Below, piece after piece: positions 432 to 54,572 of a stretch of DNA of 64,000 bases. The notes under the pieces were generated by a model, which worked only from the letters and a program-made list of their open reading frames with translations, was not told the origin of the DNA and did no database searches. A program made the translations under genes and the position numbers. Positions within the stretch are counted from its first letter, which is position 1; each line of letters opens with the position of its first letter. The stretch is from Adlercreutzia hattorii (GTDB lineage Bacteria > Actinomycetota > Coriobacteriia > Coriobacteriales > Eggerthellaceae), in contig NZ_AP022829.1 in the NCBI RefSeq assembly GCF_011405655.1, positions 667,001 through 731,000 of the forward strand. Reading direction: 5' to 3'.

Positions 432-1199
432 ATGCGCACCATAGCTATCTCCAACTACAAGGGAGGTGTGGGCAAGACGACGAGCGCCGTGAATCTCGCG
501 AGCATCTACGCCGATGCAGGCAGGCGGGTGCTCCTGATCGATCTCGACCCCCAGGCCTCCGCGACCGACTACTACGGGCTCTACGATAGGGCGAAGGCGG
601 AGGGCCGAAGCTCCATAGAGCTCCTCTATGGGCAAGCCTCCGTCGCCGACCTCGCCTTCGAGACCGGCACGGATAACCTGTCTGTGATCCCGTCGACCAT
701 CGAGCTCGTCGACCAGAACGAGCTGTTGCTCCGCGAACAGAGGCTCAAGTTCGCGCTCGACGACGTGGCAGACACCTACGACATCGCGATCATCGACTGC
801 TCTCCGGTGCTCAAGCGCCTGGCCTTCAACGCCTACCTCGCGGCTGCGGATGGCGGCATCGTCGTAATCCCGGTGAAGCTCGACTCGACGGTAATGCGGG
901 GCACGGCACTCACGGTGGAGGCCACGAAGTCCATCGCAGAGGCGCTTCGCATGCCCTGCCCCAAATACCGCATCCTCCGTACGTGCGTTCCCGGCCGCAT
1001 GACCAAGGCCGAGAGGACGGGGGCAGAGGTGCTCGACCGCTTCTTCCCCGATGCGCAGTTTACGAGCGTGATCCACGCCTCGGCCAAGGTATGCGAGGGA
1101 AGCTGGCAGTGGACGCCGGTGGCATCCTTCGAGCCCGGAAGCAGGCCTGCGCGCGACTATGCGGCCTTGGCGGAGGAGGTTCTCAATGAGCTCGACTAG
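432..1199 (+). CDS. parA: ParA-family partition ATPase
   Basis: 255 residues. The deviant Walker A KGGVGKTT lies at about residues 10-17, followed by LLIDLDPQASAT (Walker A') and IAIIDCSPVL (Walker B), which is the ParA/Soj/MinD layout. ParA ATPases bind DNA non-specifically and position ParB-bound plasmid or element DNA. The ATG at 432 has an AAGGA site six bases upstream. The 3' end overlaps parB by 14 bases, so the two are co-translated. Transcription probably starts at the promoter in the 311-353 inverted repeat, and the hairpin leader 381-420 lies in the 5' UTR. In ICEs, ParAB usually stabilises the excised circular form. Confidence 0.93.
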   Translation: MRTIAISNYKGGVGKTTSAVNLASIYADAGRRVLLIDLDPQASATDYYGLYDRAKAEGRSSIELLYGQASVADLAFETGTDNLSVIPSTIELVDQNELLLREQRLKFALDDVADTYDIAIIDCSPVLKRLAFNAYLAAADGGIVVIPVKLDSTVMRGTALTVEATKSIAEALRMPCPKYRILRTCVPGRMTKAERTGAEVLDRFFPDAQFTSVIHASAKVCEGSWQWTPVASFEPGSRPARDYAALAEEVLNELD

Positions 1200-2094
1200 C
1201 GAAGTCGCCAAGTCTTTCTCGATCTCAGGGCTCCTGGATGAGAAGTCCAAGACGCGCGAGCGCTTCCCCGTCCTTGAGATCGATGTCGACGACATCGCGG
1301 CGCACCCCGCGAACGTCGCATACTCCATGGACGCCTCTGCCATAAGGCAGCTCGCGAGCTCCATCAAGCGCGACGGCCTCACCGACCTCCCGCTCGTGAG
1401 GAAGCTCTCCGACGGCGGCTACCAGATGATATCGGGGCACCGCCGCCTTGAGGCGTTCCGCCTCCTCGCGGAAGACGATGACGCGTTCTCGCGCATTCCC
1501 TGCCGCATCGTCGAGGGAATCACCGACTCTCAGGCGATAACGCTCCTCCACACGGCGAACTACTTCGTGCGCTCGCTCACGGTGACCGAGAGGGCGTTCG
1601 CGACGGAGGCGCTCGGCATCGAGGCGGAGCGGCTCCGCGCGGAAGACCCGTCGCTCAAGGGGAAGCGAACCGAGGACATCAAGGCGGAGATGATCGAGCG
1701 GCAGACCGGCAAGGCCGTATCCGGAAGGACGATCTTGCGCGACGAGAAGATGGCCAAGACCATCCAGAGCGACCTTTCCAGGAACTGGGCGATCGAGGCC
1801 AACGAGGGAAGGCTCTCCGCATCGAGCGTCGAGATACTCAAAGGCCTTCCGAGGGAGAAGCAGACGCGCCTTTACATGAGCCGTCCCGCAGGGCTCTCCA
1901 AGAAGGAGACTACCGAGTACCTCAAGCGCAAGCTCGAACTGGAGAGCCCGTGCGACAGGAGGCTCGTCCGCATCCTCGACGACCTCCGCTCGTACATGTC
2001 CTCGATGGAGGGAAAGCCCTCGAAGGCCGATTGCGAGGCGGTCGCGGAGATACGGCGGGTAAGCGCACGAATCTCGAAGATGTGCATTAAGTGA
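1186..2094 (+). CDS. parB: ParB/Spo0J-family partition protein
   Basis: 302 residues from the ATG at 1186, chosen because GGAGGAGG (about 1172-1179) sits at the right distance; an in-frame ATG at 1159 lies deep inside parA and lacks a site. The N-terminal ParB nuclease-like (CTPase) domain is clear: EIDVDDIAAHPAN, IRQLASSIKRDGLTDLPLVR and the signature ISGHRRLEAF. A central helical region with an HTH-like stretch (TGKAVSGRTILRDEKMAK) follows, then a basic C-terminus for dimerisation. ParB binds parS sites and stimulates ParA. I found no site matching chromosomal parS, so the centromere may be one of the element's own repeats. Confidence 0.9.
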   Translation: MSSTSEVAKSFSISGLLDEKSKTRERFPVLEIDVDDIAAHPANVAYSMDASAIRQLASSIKRDGLTDLPLVRKLSDGGYQMISGHRRLEAFRLLAEDDDAFSRIPCRIVEGITDSQAITLLHTANYFVRSLTVTERAFATEALGIEAERLRAEDPSLKGKRTEDIKAEMIERQTGKAVSGRTILRDEKMAKTIQSDLSRNWAIEANEGRLSASSVEILKGLPREKQTRLYMSRPAGLSKKETTEYLKRKLELESPCDRRLVRILDDLRSYMSSMEGKPSKADCEAVAEIRRVSARISKMCIK

Positions 2095-2130
2095 CCACCT
2101 TGGGACTTATCGGCGCTTAGACGCCGAATC

Positions 2131-2330
2131 CAGCAAGTAGCCTATGGCGTATTACATCTTCGATGACGCCATAGCACTTGCCCCGGGAGGCGATGGAGCA
2201 GTCATGTCGCTTGAGCCTCGTGGGGGCTCCGCTCCGCCAACTCCCGGGGATCTGGCAAGCGCAGGCGCTCGGGACTTGCGCCCTTCACCTCCGCTTGGCG
2301 GGGGATCCCCCGCGCCCCTGATACGAATCT
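2131..2330. other. Candidate oriT region between parB and mobC
   Basis: This 235-base gap before the mobilisation genes holds two dyads: CTATGGCGT (2142-2150) with ACGCCATAG (2166-2174), and CCCCGGGAG (2181-2189) with CTCCCGGGG (2241-2249), plus GGGGATCCCC near 2304-2313. Inverted repeats immediately upstream of a mobC-relaxase pair are the usual place for a MOB-P oriT. The nic site cannot be assigned from sequence alone. The open frame running through the gap from 2144 to 2842 has no family likeness and is rejected as a gene. Confidence 0.45.
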
Positions 2331-2357
2331 TTGGAACAGCAACCAGGAGGTATTCCT

Positions 2358-2777
2358 ATGAACCCCATGAACAAGACCAGGACCTTGAGCTTCCGCCTCG
2401 CGGAGGACGACTACCAGAAGCTCGTCGAGCGCTGCCGCGTGTCGGAGCTCTCGCAGTCCAAGTACCTGCGCTACCTCATCCGCATCCCCATGCTCGCCGA
2501 GGCGGCCAAGGGAGAGATCCCCGACGGCGTCGTCATCGACAGGAAGACGATGCGCCAGATGTCGCGGGAGCTCACGCGCTGGGGCTACCACTACAACCAG
2601 GCCGTGCATGCCATGAACTCGATCAACTACTACATCGTCCACGGCAAGGCGACCACGGAGCTCATCGCCCCCAAGGCCGAGACCATCGAGACGGAGCTCG
2701 CGGCGGTGAACGAGAACGCCGAGCGGATCGTCTACGAGCTGGCACGCATCCAGTGCTCGACGATCATGGAGGCGTGA
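2358..2777 (+). CDS. mobC: MobC-like mobilisation accessory protein
   Basis: 139 residues from the ATG at 2358, preceded by AGGAGG with six bases of spacing; an upstream TTG at 2331 has no site. The N-terminus (TLSFRLAEDDYQKLVERCRVSELSQSKYLRYLI) has the ribbon-helix-helix look of MobC/NikA-type oriT-binding proteins. The middle (MRQMSRELTRWGYHYNQAVHAMNSI) matches the conserved MobC pattern of an Asn-Gln followed by a hydrophobic helix. Such proteins bind oriT and help the relaxase reach single-stranded DNA. It ends three bases before the relaxase start, so the two are co-expressed. Family assignment is by motif only. Confidence 0.82.
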   Translation: MNPMNKTRTLSFRLAEDDYQKLVERCRVSELSQSKYLRYLIRIPMLAEAAKGEIPDGVVIDRKTMRQMSRELTRWGYHYNQAVHAMNSINYYIVHGKATTELIAPKAETIETELAAVNENAERIVYELARIQCSTIMEA

Positions 2778-43599: not shown

Positions 43600-43753
43600 C
43601 CACGAGAGGTCACGATTTCGTGTAGGGCGGAATTGCCTGTTGTCGCAGGAGCTCGCAGGCCTTATAATATTCAGCAACGGACTGGTCGAATAGATCTTGG
43701 TCCACCCTGCGGCGGGGATATTCCCCGCCATTTCTATATCTAGGAGCAATACC

Positions 43754-44434
43754 TTGTCTGACCTTGGGATATTCATCGACGAATCTGGAGACGTAGGGTC
43801 GAACTCCGAGTTCTATCTGATCACGATGATACTCCATGACCAAGCATCGAGCATCGAACAGCAGGAACAAAAGCTTTGCTACGAGCTCGATCTTCTGGAT
43901 GCGCATCCTGAAGAAGCAGTCCACTCCGGTCCCATAGTCCGCAAAGAGGACGAATGGAAGGACGTCGATCTCGAAAAGCGCCGCAAGGTCTTCTTCAAGA
44001 TGTTCTCGTTCATGAGGCTTAGCCCTATCAGCTACAAGACGTTTTCCGTCAGGAAGAGGGAATGCGCCGACCGGTTCGCGCTGAGGGGGCGGCTCGCAAA
44101 CGAGCTGGGCTCTTTCCTGAGGGACAACCTCGCTTTCTTCCAGGGATTCGAGTCGGTCATCGTGTACTACGACAACGGTCAGGCTCTTGTCACGGACCTC
44201 ATCAACACCGTGCTTTGCGCGTATCTGACGAATGTGGATGTCCGCAAGATAGCTCCCTCCGAATACAGGCTGAGCCAGGCGGCGGACATGGTCTGCACGC
44301 TGGAGCTCATGAGGGAGAAATCTGAAAATGGCGCGGGCATGAGCAAGTCCGAGCTCATCTTCTTCGAGAGCAGGCGAAGGCTCAGCAAAGTGTTCCTGAA
44401 GACGCTGAAGGGACTGGAGTTTCCCAAGAGCTAG
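43754..44434 (+). CDS. DUF3800 domain protein
   Basis: 226 residues from TTG 43754, chosen because TAGGAG lies eight bases upstream. LGIFIDESGDVGSNSEFYLITMILHD is the DUF3800 signature (FxDESG), thought to have an RNase H-like fold with the first Asp/Glu as metal ligands. The later VIVYYDNGQALVTDLINTVL and RLSQAADMVCTLELM also fit. DUF3800 proteins are of unknown function and are often found in variable, defence-type regions. It is in the zone between elements B and C. Confidence 0.85.
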   Translation: MSDLGIFIDESGDVGSNSEFYLITMILHDQASSIEQQEQKLCYELDLLDAHPEEAVHSGPIVRKEDEWKDVDLEKRRKVFFKMFSFMRLSPISYKTFSVRKRECADRFALRGRLANELGSFLRDNLAFFQGFESVIVYYDNGQALVTDLINTVLCAYLTNVDVRKIAPSEYRLSQAADMVCTLELMREKSENGAGMSKSELIFFESRRRLSKVFLKTLKGLEFPKS

Positions 44435-50262: not shown

Positions 50263-53200
50263 CTAGCTTCGCTTGCCCTTCTTCCAGAGCCTAACCACAG
50301 CGGTAGTCCCGATCCCGATAATGGCAATGATCAAAACAACCAAGTAGGAATGCCACCACTCTGCTTCTGCTGTTTCCAAATCCGCTTCCACGATTTCGTA
50401 TGACTCGCCAGATGCTAAAGGAACATAAGCGTCTTCAAACACGACGAGTGGCTGTGTGATTCGGGAGGTTCCATCAGAAGAGGTGATGAGCACTTGGTCA
50501 CCCTCTTTCACTCCAGGAGCCTTCACCCAATTGACAAGCTCGAAAGCGTCCGGGGTATCGGGCTCGTACCCAGGCTGTTCAGGGCTCGATGTGCCGGAGC
50601 CCTGCGAGCCCTCAGGGGCGGGGCTCGATGTGCCGGGGCCCTGCGGACCCTCAGGGGCGGGGCTCGATGTGCCGGAGCCCTGCGGACCCTCAGGGGCGGG
50701 GCTCGATGTGCCGGAGCCCTGCGAGCCCTCGGAGGGCGAGCCATCAACACTAGGCCACTCCCAATGTCCGTAAGCAGATCCGTCATCGGTGAAGAACAGT
50801 ACCAGCTTGTCGCCGTCCTCCAGCGTGTAACCGGCCAAACCCACGCTAGGCGTCGTCCCGTTCACTGAATACAGCCAGCCGGAATTCGGGCCGCGACTCT
50901 TCTCTGCGAGCACGGTGCCGTCCGGTCCGGTGATGGAGCTCACATAGCTGCCTTTGTGCTGGTAGTTGCCCGCAGGAACCATCTGCTTGAACACATCCCA
51001 TGCCGTTGTGCCTTCGGGCAACTGCTTGTATTTGCCTGAGTACAGAACGCGCGATCCGTCGGTCACAGCGAAGTTCACATCGACCGGTGCCCTACGCGCC
51101 ATCGCCATAAGTGGGTTGCTCGTTCCGCGCACGAGTATCTCCGCGCTCACTTCCTGATTGTATAGAGCCGCGAGGTCCTTGTACTGCGCGTAGGTTATGG
51201 GATCTTCCGCGTAAAGCTTGCCGTACTTTCCGTATACCTTGTGGGAAAGCACACTTTTGATGGTGACCGCCTTCGGCTCGGCCTGGCGGGTCACCAGCAG
51301 GTTCTCGTGCGACACCACTTTCGCATTCGAGGACTTGAACAGACGCCACAGCTCCAGCTCTTCCCAGCCGTCCTGCGCCACGGGCACGATGCCCGTGTTC
51401 TTCTCTTGTGCGCTGTCGCGGACCCATACGAGCTCCCCGTTGTCGTCAGCGTATACCTCGAAAAACGGAGATAGGTTAACGGTGACCTCGTTTGCGGATG
51501 GGTTCGCACCTGCGTTGAGGCCGTCGAAGTAATGCTGCTTTGCCTGCTCCATGAGATCGAATTCCGAAGCGAGGTCGGAAAGCTCGATGGGCTTCACGCG
51601 GATGGTGAAATCCTTGGTCGCCTTGACGCCGGTGTCTTTGTCGGAAAGGGAAACGGAAAGCGTCGCGAGGCCTTCCATGTTCGCGCTGCGGGCGAGGCTG
51701 CCCGTGCCCATGGGGCGAAGCACGGAGACTCGGGCGCTGTTGCGCACGTCGGGTACGGTCAATAGCGTGCCGTCGCTGCTTGCAAGCGTAACGGGGTAGT
51801 ACTTGCCGTCCACGCCGAAATCGGCCGTCGTGGGAAGCTGGATGTCGTTCTCGACAGTGTAGATGCCGCCGGCATCGGGCTGAAGTCGTACGCCGGTGAC
51901 GCTATCGCGCAGGCCTGCCTTGGCAAAGCCGGCGTCGAGCTTTGCCATAAGCTCGCTTTTGATCTGCTGTGCCCTTGCGCCGTCCAGCGAGTCGACATGC
52001 ACGGGGAAGGTCTGCTCGACTGCGATCTCGGGTTCACCCATTGCCGTGCGCTGGAAGACGACCTTAGCGGTTAGCGTCACGTCCTTCGGCGTTTCTCCGC
52101 ACTTCACCTTGCCGACGTACGGGGCGAACAGCGTGTCGGCCGTGCCCTGGTTCTCGCTGGATACGGAGATGACGGATGGGTCGGAGGAAGTCCATGTGAT
52201 CTGCGCCCAAAGCTTTCCGCTTGCAACCTTGGGAAGTGAAAGGTCGGTGCTTACGTTGGTGGTGTCGCCAAGGTCGACCTGCGAGAGAACGTCTGCCGCC
52301 AGCATGGCTTTGACCTTCTGGGCGTTCCAATAGACGATGACGGGAACAGTCTTCTGAACGGTGGCTCCGGCTAAGGAAAGGTCGATAGTGATGCGGTAGG
52401 AGCCGAACCATTGCGCGCGGAAGCCGTCGGGGTCTGCGTAGAAGTAGGTGATGTTGCCTTCTTGGTCGATGGCGGAGCAGTTGTCGGTGCCGTTCGTCTT
52501 CTCGATGGATTTCAGGGCGACCGTGATATTCGGGTGCTTCGCATGGATCATATCGACGACGTTGGCGTCCTTGCCGAACTCGGGGTAGAGCGTCGAGAGT
52601 GATGCGGCTATCTCGTCAAGTGTCTTGTCGGTTGCGGGCGGAACGTCGGGGTTGGGCTCGTCAGGACTGGGGCCGGGCGTGGGATCAGGATCATCGGGAT
52701 CGACGGGGCCGGGTGCCGTGCCGCCGATGATGACGCTATGAAGGTAGGCGGGGTCGTCCGACTGCACGCAGCTTTCTCTCTCGACTGTGCCCGTGCCCGC
52801 GCCTGATATGCGCGTGACATAGCCGCATGTTCTGATGGTGGATGAGCCGTAGAGGAAGTCGACGATGTCGCTTGCGGTGTCTGAGCCCGAAATGGCGCCG
52901 GTGCTGTAGCAGCGCTCGATACTTCCGTTGTTCTGCAGCTGGCCGCAGATGCCGCCTGCACGACTGGTTCCAGTCACGGAACCGGTGTTGTAGGAGTTCT
53001 CGATGGTGGTGTACTTCGCATACCCGACGATGCCTCCCGCAACGCCGCCCGACACGGAACCAGCATTGGAGCAGCTCGAGAACGAGGCGGACTGCGAGGC
53101 GCTGTTGCCAGCGTAGCCAACCAGACCGCCTGCGTAGGCTGTGCTTCCTTTGGCGCCTGTCGAGACGCTTCCTGAGAAGCTGCATCCGGTGAGCGAGCCC

Positions 53201-53892
53201 TGCTGCACTTTGCCTACGATACCGCCGACATAGGCCTTGGTGGAAGACACCGTGCCGCTCACATGAAGGTTCTTGATGGTGGCACCGTTGATACCGCCGA
53301 AGAAGCCAACGTTCGTAGTAGTACGATTCACGCTCAAGTTCGTGATGCTATGGCCGCAGCCATCGAACACGCCGCTGAACGCTTCGGTGATATAGCCGCT
53401 TGATGGATAGAAGGGCTCCCACTCGCCAACGGAGATGTCAGACGTCATCTTCACATGGACGCCAGGGTTGTCGTTCATGATGCCGCGTAGCAGCTCCAGG
53501 TCTTCCACGGAACCGACGAGAAAGGGGTCAGTTTCCGTGCCACTGCCCGCAAGATCGTCCTGAGGCTGAATGAGCTCTTGAGCCTCGCTGACGCTTGTGG
53601 GCTCATCTTCGGCTTCAACCGATTCGTACGACTTCTCATCGGCGCCAGAGTCATCGAGCGCTCCGTCCACAGGCGAAATGGGCTGCTCCGGAGCGGCAGG
53701 AAGGGGAGGTTCCGTAGGCTCATCGGCCTCAGCAGAGCCTGCCACCTCATCTGATGAAGCTGGTGCTCCAGTTGATTCAGAAAGGTTAGGAGAGGTTTCC
53801 GCAACCGTATCTTGTGCAAATACAGAGGTAGGCGTGAACGAGAAACAGAGCAGAAGGGACAAAAATGCGCAAACGAACTTAGAGCCGGACAT
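50263..53892 (-). CDS. GLUG/DUF4430 cell-surface protein, probable cobalamin-linked
   Basis: 1209 residues from ATG 53892, with GAGGTG six bases upstream; the open frame extends to 54012 but that part lies in the riboswitch. Signal peptide VCAFLSLLLCFSFTPTSVFAQ, then a Glu/Ser-rich linker. GLUG repeats occupy about residues 170-330 (VGGIVGKVQQGSLTGCSF, AGGLVGYAGNS, AGGIVGYAKYTTIENSYNTG). Long beta-rich bacterial Ig-like regions follow. A DUF4430 (transcobalamin-like) domain lies near residues 1000-1080 (GTTAWDVFKQMV ... GPNSGWLYSVNGTTPSVGLAGYTLEDGDKLVLFF). Four 13-residue Pro/Ser repeats and a C-terminal anchor (SYLVVLIIAIIGIGTTAVVRLWKKGKRS) follow. It likely captures a corrinoid at the surface. 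Confidence 0.85.
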   Translation of the reverse strand: MSGSKFVCAFLSLLLCFSFTPTSVFAQDTVAETSPNLSESTGAPASSDEVAGSAEADEPTEPPLPAAPEQPISPVDGALDDSGADEKSYESVEAEDEPTSVSEAQELIQPQDDLAGSGTETDPFLVGSVEDLELLRGIMNDNPGVHVKMTSDISVGEWEPFYPSSGYITEAFSGVFDGCGHSITNLSVNRTTTNVGFFGGINGATIKNLHVSGTVSSTKAYVGGIVGKVQQGSLTGCSFSGSVSTGAKGSTAYAGGLVGYAGNSASQSASFSSCSNAGSVSGGVAGGIVGYAKYTTIENSYNTGSVTGTSRAGGICGQLQNNGSIERCYSTGAISGSDTASDIVDFLYGSSTIRTCGYVTRISGAGTGTVERESCVQSDDPAYLHSVIIGGTAPGPVDPDDPDPTPGPSPDEPNPDVPPATDKTLDEIAASLSTLYPEFGKDANVVDMIHAKHPNITVALKSIEKTNGTDNCSAIDQEGNITYFYADPDGFRAQWFGSYRITIDLSLAGATVQKTVPVIVYWNAQKVKAMLAADVLSQVDLGDTTNVSTDLSLPKVASGKLWAQITWTSSDPSVISVSSENQGTADTLFAPYVGKVKCGETPKDVTLTAKVVFQRTAMGEPEIAVEQTFPVHVDSLDGARAQQIKSELMAKLDAGFAKAGLRDSVTGVRLQPDAGGIYTVENDIQLPTTADFGVDGKYYPVTLASSDGTLLTVPDVRNSARVSVLRPMGTGSLARSANMEGLATLSVSLSDKDTGVKATKDFTIRVKPIELSDLASEFDLMEQAKQHYFDGLNAGANPSANEVTVNLSPFFEVYADDNGELVWVRDSAQEKNTGIVPVAQDGWEELELWRLFKSSNAKVVSHENLLVTRQAEPKAVTIKSVLSHKVYGKYGKLYAEDPITYAQYKDLAALYNQEVSAEILVRGTSNPLMAMARRAPVDVNFAVTDGSRVLYSGKYKQLPEGTTAWDVFKQMVPAGNYQHKGSYVSSITGPDGTVLAEKSRGPNSGWLYSVNGTTPSVGLAGYTLEDGDKLVLFFTDDGSAYGHWEWPSVDGSPSEGSQGSGTSSPAPEGPQGSGTSSPAPEGPQGPGTSSPAPEGSQGSGTSSPEQPGYEPDTPDAFELVNWVKAPGVKEGDQVLITSSDGTSRITQPLVVFEDAYVPLASGESYEIVEADLETAEAEWWHSYLVVLIIAIIGIGTTAVVRLWKKGKRS
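50582..50737. repeat. 39-bp tandem repeat, four units
   Basis: Four tandem 39-base units (50582, 50621, 50660, 50699) encode 13-residue SSPAPEGPQGSGT-type repeats near the C-terminus of the surface protein; the fourth is partly diverged. A flexible wall-spanning stalk is likely, with length variation by slippage. Confidence 0.85.
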
Positions 53893-53917
53893 GATCGGCA
53901 CCTCTTTCCCAGGGCTA

Positions 53918-54085
53918 TCGTGCGATGGAGAGGTGTTCCGACTTTGCCTCATCAAAGCAGCCACCGTGCCCGGCGAGGACGAAATGGCAATCTGGAGGAT
54001 TACATCGCCCAAGATGCTGCTTTTCGGCGTTTACGGTTACTGGTATAGCGGAGGATTCTCACCTCCATTCCCACTCAGAGCTGCA
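53918..54085 (-). ncRNA. Probable cobalamin riboswitch
   Basis: On the minus strand, GTGGGAATGGAGGTGAGAATCCTCCGC (54048-54073) matches the cobalamin core GGGAA...GGTG-AAATCC..GC, CAGTAACCGTAA follows like CAACTGTAA, and AGTCGGAACACC (about 53935-53946) matches the B12 box. It lies just before the ribosome site of the DUF4430 surface protein, a sensible target. A pairing between its 3' part and the GAGGTG site is likely. Confidence 0.7.
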
Positions 54086-54302
54086 GCATGTGCGGCAGCT
54101 CCGTACCCCCTGCATGCGGGCGCACTCCATCAATGCCAAAACAACAATCACATTATAGGCTATCGATTAAAGGGTGCGCTAGTATGAATATTATCCCAGG
54201 GCTACTCCAACACAGTAGTCGGAAGTGGCTTGTAAGCCTCGCCCTTGACGTCTTCGAGGTTGGAGACGGCTTCGCACATCAAAGACAACGAAGAGTCGGG
54301 CC

Positions 54303-54572
54303 GTGCGATCGGCGATGCCCAGCTCGAAGGAACGGGGTACAGCTACACGCTCTCTCATCTCCGGCAAGCACAAGATGGTGATCCTGTACTGCCTTATGGA
54401 GTACCAGCCGGTTAGGTTCAACGAGCTGAAGCGCTACCTCGGGAAGATCTCAGACAAGACGCTCTCCCAGAACCTCAAGGAGTTGGAAGGGGATGAGTTG
54501 GTCCGTCGCAAGGTGTATCCGCAGATCCCTCCCAAGGTCGAGCACTCGCTTCCGAATCAAAATAGACAATAA
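54303..54572 (+). pseudogene. HxlR-family regulator fragment
   Basis: SGKHKMVILYCLMEYQPVRFNELKRYLGKISDKTLSQNLKELEGDELVRRKVYPQIPPKVEHSL covers the winged helix of HxlR regulators, but the part before it (normally CPVE...) does not match and the end diverges after PKVEHSL into NQNRQ and a stop, where PxVEYSLTEYG and 20 further residues are expected. The gene seems truncated at both ends, probably by insertion of the following ATPase region. Confidence 0.7.

Follow-up and report, generated by a model that had tools for sequence, protein, structure and literature searches.

A cobalamin riboswitch ahead of a gene for a predicted membrane-anchored DUF4430 protein in Adlercreutzia hattorii

A 64,000-nucleotide (nt) stretch of the Adlercreutzia hattorii genome (contig NZ_AP022829.1, positions 667,001 to 731,000; referred to here as the window, with its first letter as position 1) contains a cobalamin riboswitch on the minus strand at 54082-53890, directly ahead of a gene for a large protein with a DUF4430 domain. 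Our interpretation, which we hold with high confidence, is that the riboswitch acts on translation and that the gene product is a membrane-anchored protein that captures cobamides, which would then be handed to importers. Cobalamin riboswitches and the transporter ECF-CbrT are already known. B12 capture by Gram-positive gut bacteria is poorly known, and the DUF4430 proteins provide a testable named family, whose domain, so far of "unknown function," has the predicted fold of animal B12 carriers and is tied by RNA control and gene order to cobamide uptake in both Eggerthellaceae and Bacillota.

A cobalamin riboswitch with a structured P6 insert

Comparison of the whole window with Rfam by cmscan gave two matches that exceed the Rfam cutoffs. 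One of them is the AdoCbl-II riboswitch RF01689 at 54089-54014 on the minus strand (42.7 bits, above the curated clan CL00101 cutoff, here a gathering score of 36.5 bits; E value of 6.8e-7 over the 64-kb window). The initial annotation of this DNA had proposed a cobalamin riboswitch in the minus-strand leader from three motifs, all of which are present: GGGAA..GGTG (54072-54061), CAGTAACCGTAA (54042-54031), and the B12-box-like AGTCGGAACACC (53943-53932). The significant Infernal match to Rfam bears this proposal out, and the third motif is the real B12 box. In the RF01689 alignment, P6 is closed on wrong letters, and the 3' boundary is wrong because an 88-nt insert in P6 separates the core from the B12 box, which sits past the insert together with the 3' arm of P3. 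P1 of the Rfam model (AUGCUGC with GCAGCAU) was rejected as part of the aptamer; its 3' half lies within the P6 insert and is paired in the insert's own fold.

RF01689 was then sought in 138 genomes of the same family (Eggerthellaceae), of which 86 had a match at an E value of ≤0.001. Surroundings were taken for 104 of the 105 listed hits (2 from this genome and 102 from others; the hit on G005:C48 was left out), and 84 of them (85 with the near miss L084) belong by motif to one dominant subtype, marked by L5 UACCAG (or UGCCAG), P6 CCG/CGG, the B12 box, and CCCUGG. The remaining 19 hits are unlike this subtype; 7 of these are also located upstream of DUF4430. The B12 box pattern AGUCGGAnnnC[CU] occurs in all 84 subtype members, and in 79 of them CCCUGG follows no more than 50 nt 3' of this box, compared to 1.06 expected from shuffles. 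Among the 76 subtype members with both marks, the end of CCCUGG lies 8 to 19 nt before the ATG in 74, and a Shine-Dalgarno (SD)-like motif stands between the two in 75.

We built a covariance model, R1, from an alignment, A4, of 54 natural sequences of relatives; longer sequences and four odd ones had been excluded earlier, and three near-duplicate or own-genome rows were dropped from a set of 57. With this genome held out (the hold-out applies to the genome alone, since A4 includes sequences of the same genus), R1 found a single site in the window (104.3 bits, E value of 2.2e-28), which covers model positions 1 to 155 of 155 and runs through the start codon, and two sites across the genome.

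The P3, P4, P5, and P6 core and the B12 box are all present (Table 1), the P5 and L5 labels being assigned by analogy with the description in the accessible text of PMC10907184. In A4, the named structure had 94.5% of its cells paired, compared to 85.2% in shuffles, with nine pairs doubly changed, and its covariation score of 0.259 was reached by none of 500 shuffles (mean of 0.083, standard deviation [SD value] of 0.008); the signal collapsed when the structure was slid by 1 to 3 columns. P4 was paired in 100% of cells, and three of its five pairs vary on both sides. The middle pair of P5 is A-U in 64, G-C in 13, and C-G in 5 of 82 distinct sequences, all 82 of which have CCG/CGG in P6. For P3, arms from the same species scored 10.43, against 8.78 (SD value of 0.23) for swapped arms, across 75 distinct sequences, and 0 of 5000 swaps reached 10.43. 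The window's P6 insert folds on its own at −35.3 kcal/mol.

TABLE 1 Positions of riboswitch elements and protein features in the window
Feature	Position	Strand	Evidence
Cobalamin riboswitch, aptamer and expression platform, through the start codon	53890..54082	-	R1, 104.3 bits; RF01689, 42.7 bits
P3 5' arm GAGUG, U54073 bulged	54072..54076	-	Sequence, R1 alignment
P3 3' arm CCUC	53930-53933	-	Sequence, R1 alignment
P4 hairpin GGAGG-UGAGAAU-CCUCC	54050..54066	-	Paired in 54 relatives
P5 with loop L5 (ACCA, 54044-54041)	54038..54047	-	Pair variation in relatives
P6, CCG 54036-54034 with CGG 53940-53938, enclosing the insert	53938..54036	-	Conserved letters
Structured insert within P6, 88 nt	53944..54031	-	Comparison with relatives, folding
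B12 box AGUCGGAACACC	53932..53943	-	Subtype motif
L13-like CCCUGG, complement of L5 CCA(G), proposed kissing loop	53909..53914	-	Motif conservation
SD-like AGAGGUG, complement of CACCUCU 53935-53929	53899..53905	-	Sequence
Coding sequence, 1209 amino acids, ATG 53892; signal-peptide-like N terminus, GLUG, DUF4430, repeats, membrane helix	50263..53892	-	
Best of four GLUG motif stretches, residues 308-335	52888..52971	-	PF07581, 55.3 bits for the whole protein
DUF4430 domain, residues 961-1034	50791..51012	-	PF14478, 42.6 bits (cutoff, 23.8)
Four 39-nt tandem repeats, Gly/Ser/Pro-rich spacer near the C terminus	50582..50738	-	93% matches
Membrane helix and basic tail at the C terminus, residues 1179-1209	50266..50358	-	By eye

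The RNA shares the P3-P6 core, the B12 box, L5/L13 complementarity, and a position ahead of B12 uptake genes with the cobalamin riboswitches of Rfam clan CL00101 (RF01689 and RF00174). It differs from RF01689 in P6, for which the consensus has a loop of 7 positions, whereas the insert of the 84 subtype members measures 15 to 135 nt (median of 52 nt). Since the short P6 loop is lacking, we classify the RNA as a cobalamin riboswitch only and leave its subclass unsettled. In addition, L5 reads UACCAG in the subtype, in contrast to the consensus UCCCG quoted in the accessible text of PMC10653944, and the SD lies 3' of L13, unlike in the clan CL00101 riboswitches.

Gene order downstream of the riboswitch

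At least 8 kb of downstream sequence was available for 65 of the 85 subtype hits. A DUF4430 gene lies downstream on the same strand in 59 of these, genes for EcfT, EcfA, and an S component lie downstream in 48, and DUF4430 and/or a complete ECF transporter is found in 63. In the commonest layout, the riboswitch is followed by a large and/or small DUF4430 protein and then by EcfT, EcfA, and S. The three transporter components were identified from their similarity to genes at two loci, L074 and L069; the L074 S component has 6fnp_A as its best solved match (E value of 3.4e-9), and its Pfam matches are ECF S-component families with ECF-ribofla_trS first. Structure 6FNP is ECF-CbrT, described as a vitamin B12 transporter in the accessible text of PMC5997447, in which the word "riboswitch" does not occur. 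The system described here differs from ECF-CbrT in that relatives add DUF4430 proteins upstream of the transporter, which does not stand beside the window gene.

The pairing of riboswitch and DUF4430 is general. Among the 138 family genomes, 78 had both RF01689 and DUF4430 and 27 had neither (Fisher P value of 4e-8, to be read as a guide only, as the genomes are related; stricter filters lose weak matches). In this genome, there are two RF01689 matches and two DUF4430 matches only, with one riboswitch directly ahead of each DUF4430 gene; the second gene (L005, 10453-10956) encodes a protein of 167 amino acids that begins with a lipobox-like sequence. When named genomes were scanned for DUF4430, the best 80 of 444 relatives were kept; EcfT, EcfA, and S lie on the DUF4430 strand at 27 of these 80 loci, and the closest of the 80 was Adlercreutzia muris DSM 29508, with 100% identity in the domain. 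Similar riboswitch-DUF4430 modules are present in Bacillota: an RF00174 riboswitch lies upstream on the same strand at 21 of 24 DUF4430 loci that were drawn from these 80 and scanned with Rfam (the exceptions being L177, L188, and L205), a sample that is biased, 23 of the 24 having been chosen since a 50-record whole-genome search seemed to place a riboswitch match there.

Two loci, L088 and L119 (genomes G067 and G065), carry tandem cobalamin riboswitches (at 1001-1097 and 1276-1350 in L119) before a single giant gene whose product has three DUF4430 domains. At L068 (~1133-2473, plus strand; G088), a subtype riboswitch precedes an open reading frame (ORF) of 446 amino acids that by eye is radical SAM-like, rather than DUF4430 or ECF, and is possibly related to corrinoids or haem.

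The DUF4430 protein and its predicted fold

The most likely translation start of the window gene is the ATG at 53892; the TTG at 54012, which opens an ORF overlapping the aptamer, was rejected because it would place translation within the aptamer. Only GLUG motifs and DUF4430 exceed the Pfam cutoffs in the 1209-amino-acid protein, whose N terminus resembles a signal peptide by eye. LPxTG is absent from the last 60 residues and was found at the C terminus in none of 33 listed large DUF4430 ORFs (L112 and L144 being uninformative there, and four rows representing two tandem-riboswitch pairs). With its single C-terminal membrane helix and basic tail, the protein looks membrane anchored rather than wall anchored by sortase. 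Two functions suggested by matches in the GLUG-bearing N-terminal part were rejected: "zinc metalloprotease" at residues 202-321, far below the cutoff (23.7 against 3000 bits), and "IgA1 protease" (3n6z) at residues 116-343. The coding alignment with A. muris contains a length difference of 39 nt, as would follow from the gain or loss of one tandem repeat unit.

Because sequence profiles gave no significant link to transcobalamin, we turned to structure comparison. An AlphaFold2 model of the DUF4430 segment (50758-51105; 38 aligned relatives as input) had a pLDDT (predicted local distance difference test) of 90.2, and in Foldseek its 16 top solved matches were all chains of transcobalamin, haptocorrin, or intrinsic factor, followed at rank 17 by 3u7z, a Ruminococcus gnavus protein. 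VIA-align gave Z scores of 10.9 to 13.2 for the carriers (at 16 to 21% identity in the structure alignments), 10.5 for 3u7z, and 8.1 for the next unrelated fold. The domain is thus predicted to take the fold of the C-terminal beta domain of the three carriers; a shared fold alone is no proof of corrinoid binding.

In the animal carriers, the beta domain is accompanied by an N-terminal alpha domain (Cobalamin_bind). No alpha-domain family is among the Pfam families of the window protein at E values up to 1, for which reason we do not place it in the transcobalamin/intrinsic factor/haptocorrin family; as predicted here, DUF4430 makes up a single domain within a membrane-anchored protein of a bacterium. 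That DUF4430 forms the C-terminal part of animal carriers has already been published, according to the accessible text of PMC4350170. In the open-access literature, to which our search was confined (subscription papers and preprints being outside its scope), no paper linking bacterial DUF4430 with cobalamin was found. The initial annotation had predicted a wall-anchored protein with a transcobalamin-like DUF4430 domain and a role in surface capture of B12; the domain and its likeness to the carriers hold up, the gene order in many relatives agrees with the link to uptake, and the wall anchor has to be replaced by a putative membrane anchor.

Proposed control and alternative readings

In our model, ample cobamide (adenosylcobalamin or a related corrinoid) would cause L5 to kiss the CCCUGG loop upstream of the SD, and translation would stop. 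Under cobamide shortage, the membrane-anchored surface protein would be made, its DUF4430 domain would catch extracellular cobamides, and these might be passed to a CbrT-like ECF transporter or to BtuCD-type ABC transporters; binding and hand-over are suggested by the fold and the gene order. Repression of translation appears likeliest because the L13-like CCCUGG stands just before the SD, as in the layout of env8, in which ligand binding docks the P13 loop on L5 and masks the ribosome-binding site (accessible text of PMC10907184). Furthermore, a crude scan of 53850-54350 found neither a terminator-like site nor a sigma-70-like promoter, for which reason control of translation is preferred and transcription attenuation was rejected.

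Several observations weigh against this model. The pairing of L5 with L13 has no covariation support; the proposed L5-L13 pairs, like those of P6, are invariant in A4 and hence uninformative either way. A conserved P13 stem was detected neither by covariation (438 of 2000 in an arm swap test, which has low power where both arms are conserved) nor by folding (mean z of 0.08 over 68 sequences); by eye, the window has a P13 candidate of its own, AUCGCAC/GUG(C)CGAU. P3 of the window carries a bulged U. No ECF genes adjoin either riboswitch of this genome, and a CbrT-like S component (38% identity) is encoded elsewhere (G000:C1:80828-81433), next to an ABC ATPase ORF. In 25 of the 138 family genomes, DUF4430 occurs without RF01689, and in 8, RF01689 occurs without DUF4430. 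Finally, DUF4430 sequence profile A1 had no match to solved B12 carriers at an E value of 0.01, and the lone transcobalamin match of profile A3 (transcobalamin-2) ranked third with an E value of 0.78, so that structure alone reached the carriers.

The genome has four FecCD permeases, one gene with a B12-binding domain (by eye, a 972-amino-acid MetH-like ORF beside an MTHFR-like ORF), and one TP_methylase gene. Because of the single B12-binding-domain gene and the single TP_methylase gene, the organism seems to use B12 that it imports rather than to make the corrin ring. Beside its CbrT-like ECF genes lies a homocysteine S-methyltransferase-like ORF (L172, 11403-12422, minus strand; PF02574, 21.5 bits with a cutoff of 22).

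Among the alternatives, a preference of the RNA for another corrinoid form, e.g., cobinamide or a particular cobamide, over adenosylcobalamin is conceivable, if unlikely: the AdoCbl-II core carries a P6 insert missing from RF01689, and cobalamin riboswitches are broadly sensitive to corrinoid cofactors according to the title of PMC9600662, but the sequence evidence here does not separate the ligands.

We regard it as improbable that the riboswitch is real and the DUF4430 domain of the large protein has lost corrinoid binding, leaving an adhesin or stalk in the B12 regulon. The window gene does stand alone, without ECF genes, its single DUF4430 domain has diverged (30 to 46% identity to aligned relatives), and GLUG motifs and other surface sequence make up the greater part of the protein. 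However, the riboswitch is identical and the reading frame kept in A. muris, the domain is predicted to fold like the B12 carriers, and the ECF operons of relatives are headed by large DUF4430 proteins.

Still less probable is an activating switch, in which CACCUCU would pair with the SD in the ligand-free state and ligand-driven formation of P3 would release it. This perfect 7-nt complement of the SD overlaps the 3' arm of P3, the pairing is part of the expression platform's lowest-energy fold, and an activating corrinoid riboswitch is known from PMC10653944. By eye, however, the SD pairing is shorter in most relatives, the 8- to 19-nt spacing of CCCUGG to the ATG is as expected if kissing masks the start, and corrinoid riboswitches have historically been known as repressors of biosynthesis and uptake genes (accessible text of PMC10653944). 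A chance match or decayed relic, to which the empty P3 3' arm and five unfilled positions of the Rfam alignment might point, has a negligible probability and is already refuted at the sequence level, given the held-out R1 E value, the presence of the missing arm past the insert, and a 200-nt riboswitch stretch that is 100% identical in a second genome, A. muris DSM 29508 (coding region, 98.0%).

Beyond repression and capture by the window pair, we consider it reasonably likely that transcobalamin and intrinsic factor have a bacterial counterpart in the DUF4430 proteins, which would form a surface relay that feeds a CbrT-type ECF importer under one cobamide riboswitch. The hosts of this relay would be Eggerthellaceae and many Bacillota. 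Its parts would be DUF4430 proteins that are borne on stalks and anchored in the membrane, reaching about 2,600 amino acids and three DUF4430 domains at most, and a smaller DUF4430 protein close to the membrane. By role, such a relay resembles BtuG and BtuH of Bacteroides, which capture B12 at the surface of gut bacteria of another phylum with another cell envelope (accessible text of PMC6143338 and PMC8941943); the likeness is one of role and not of compared sequences. If true, it would be a Gram-positive answer to BtuG that could compete with host B12 carriers of the same fold, which would alter models of how gut microbes compete for B12 with one another and with the host and raises the question of the origin of the animal carrier domain.

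Elsewhere in the window, a DUF3800-XI RNA (RF02975, 49.9 bits with a cutoff of 37.8) was found at 43678-43726 on the plus strand. It overlaps the beginning of a same-strand ORF (43697-44434), which presumably encodes a DUF3800 protein.

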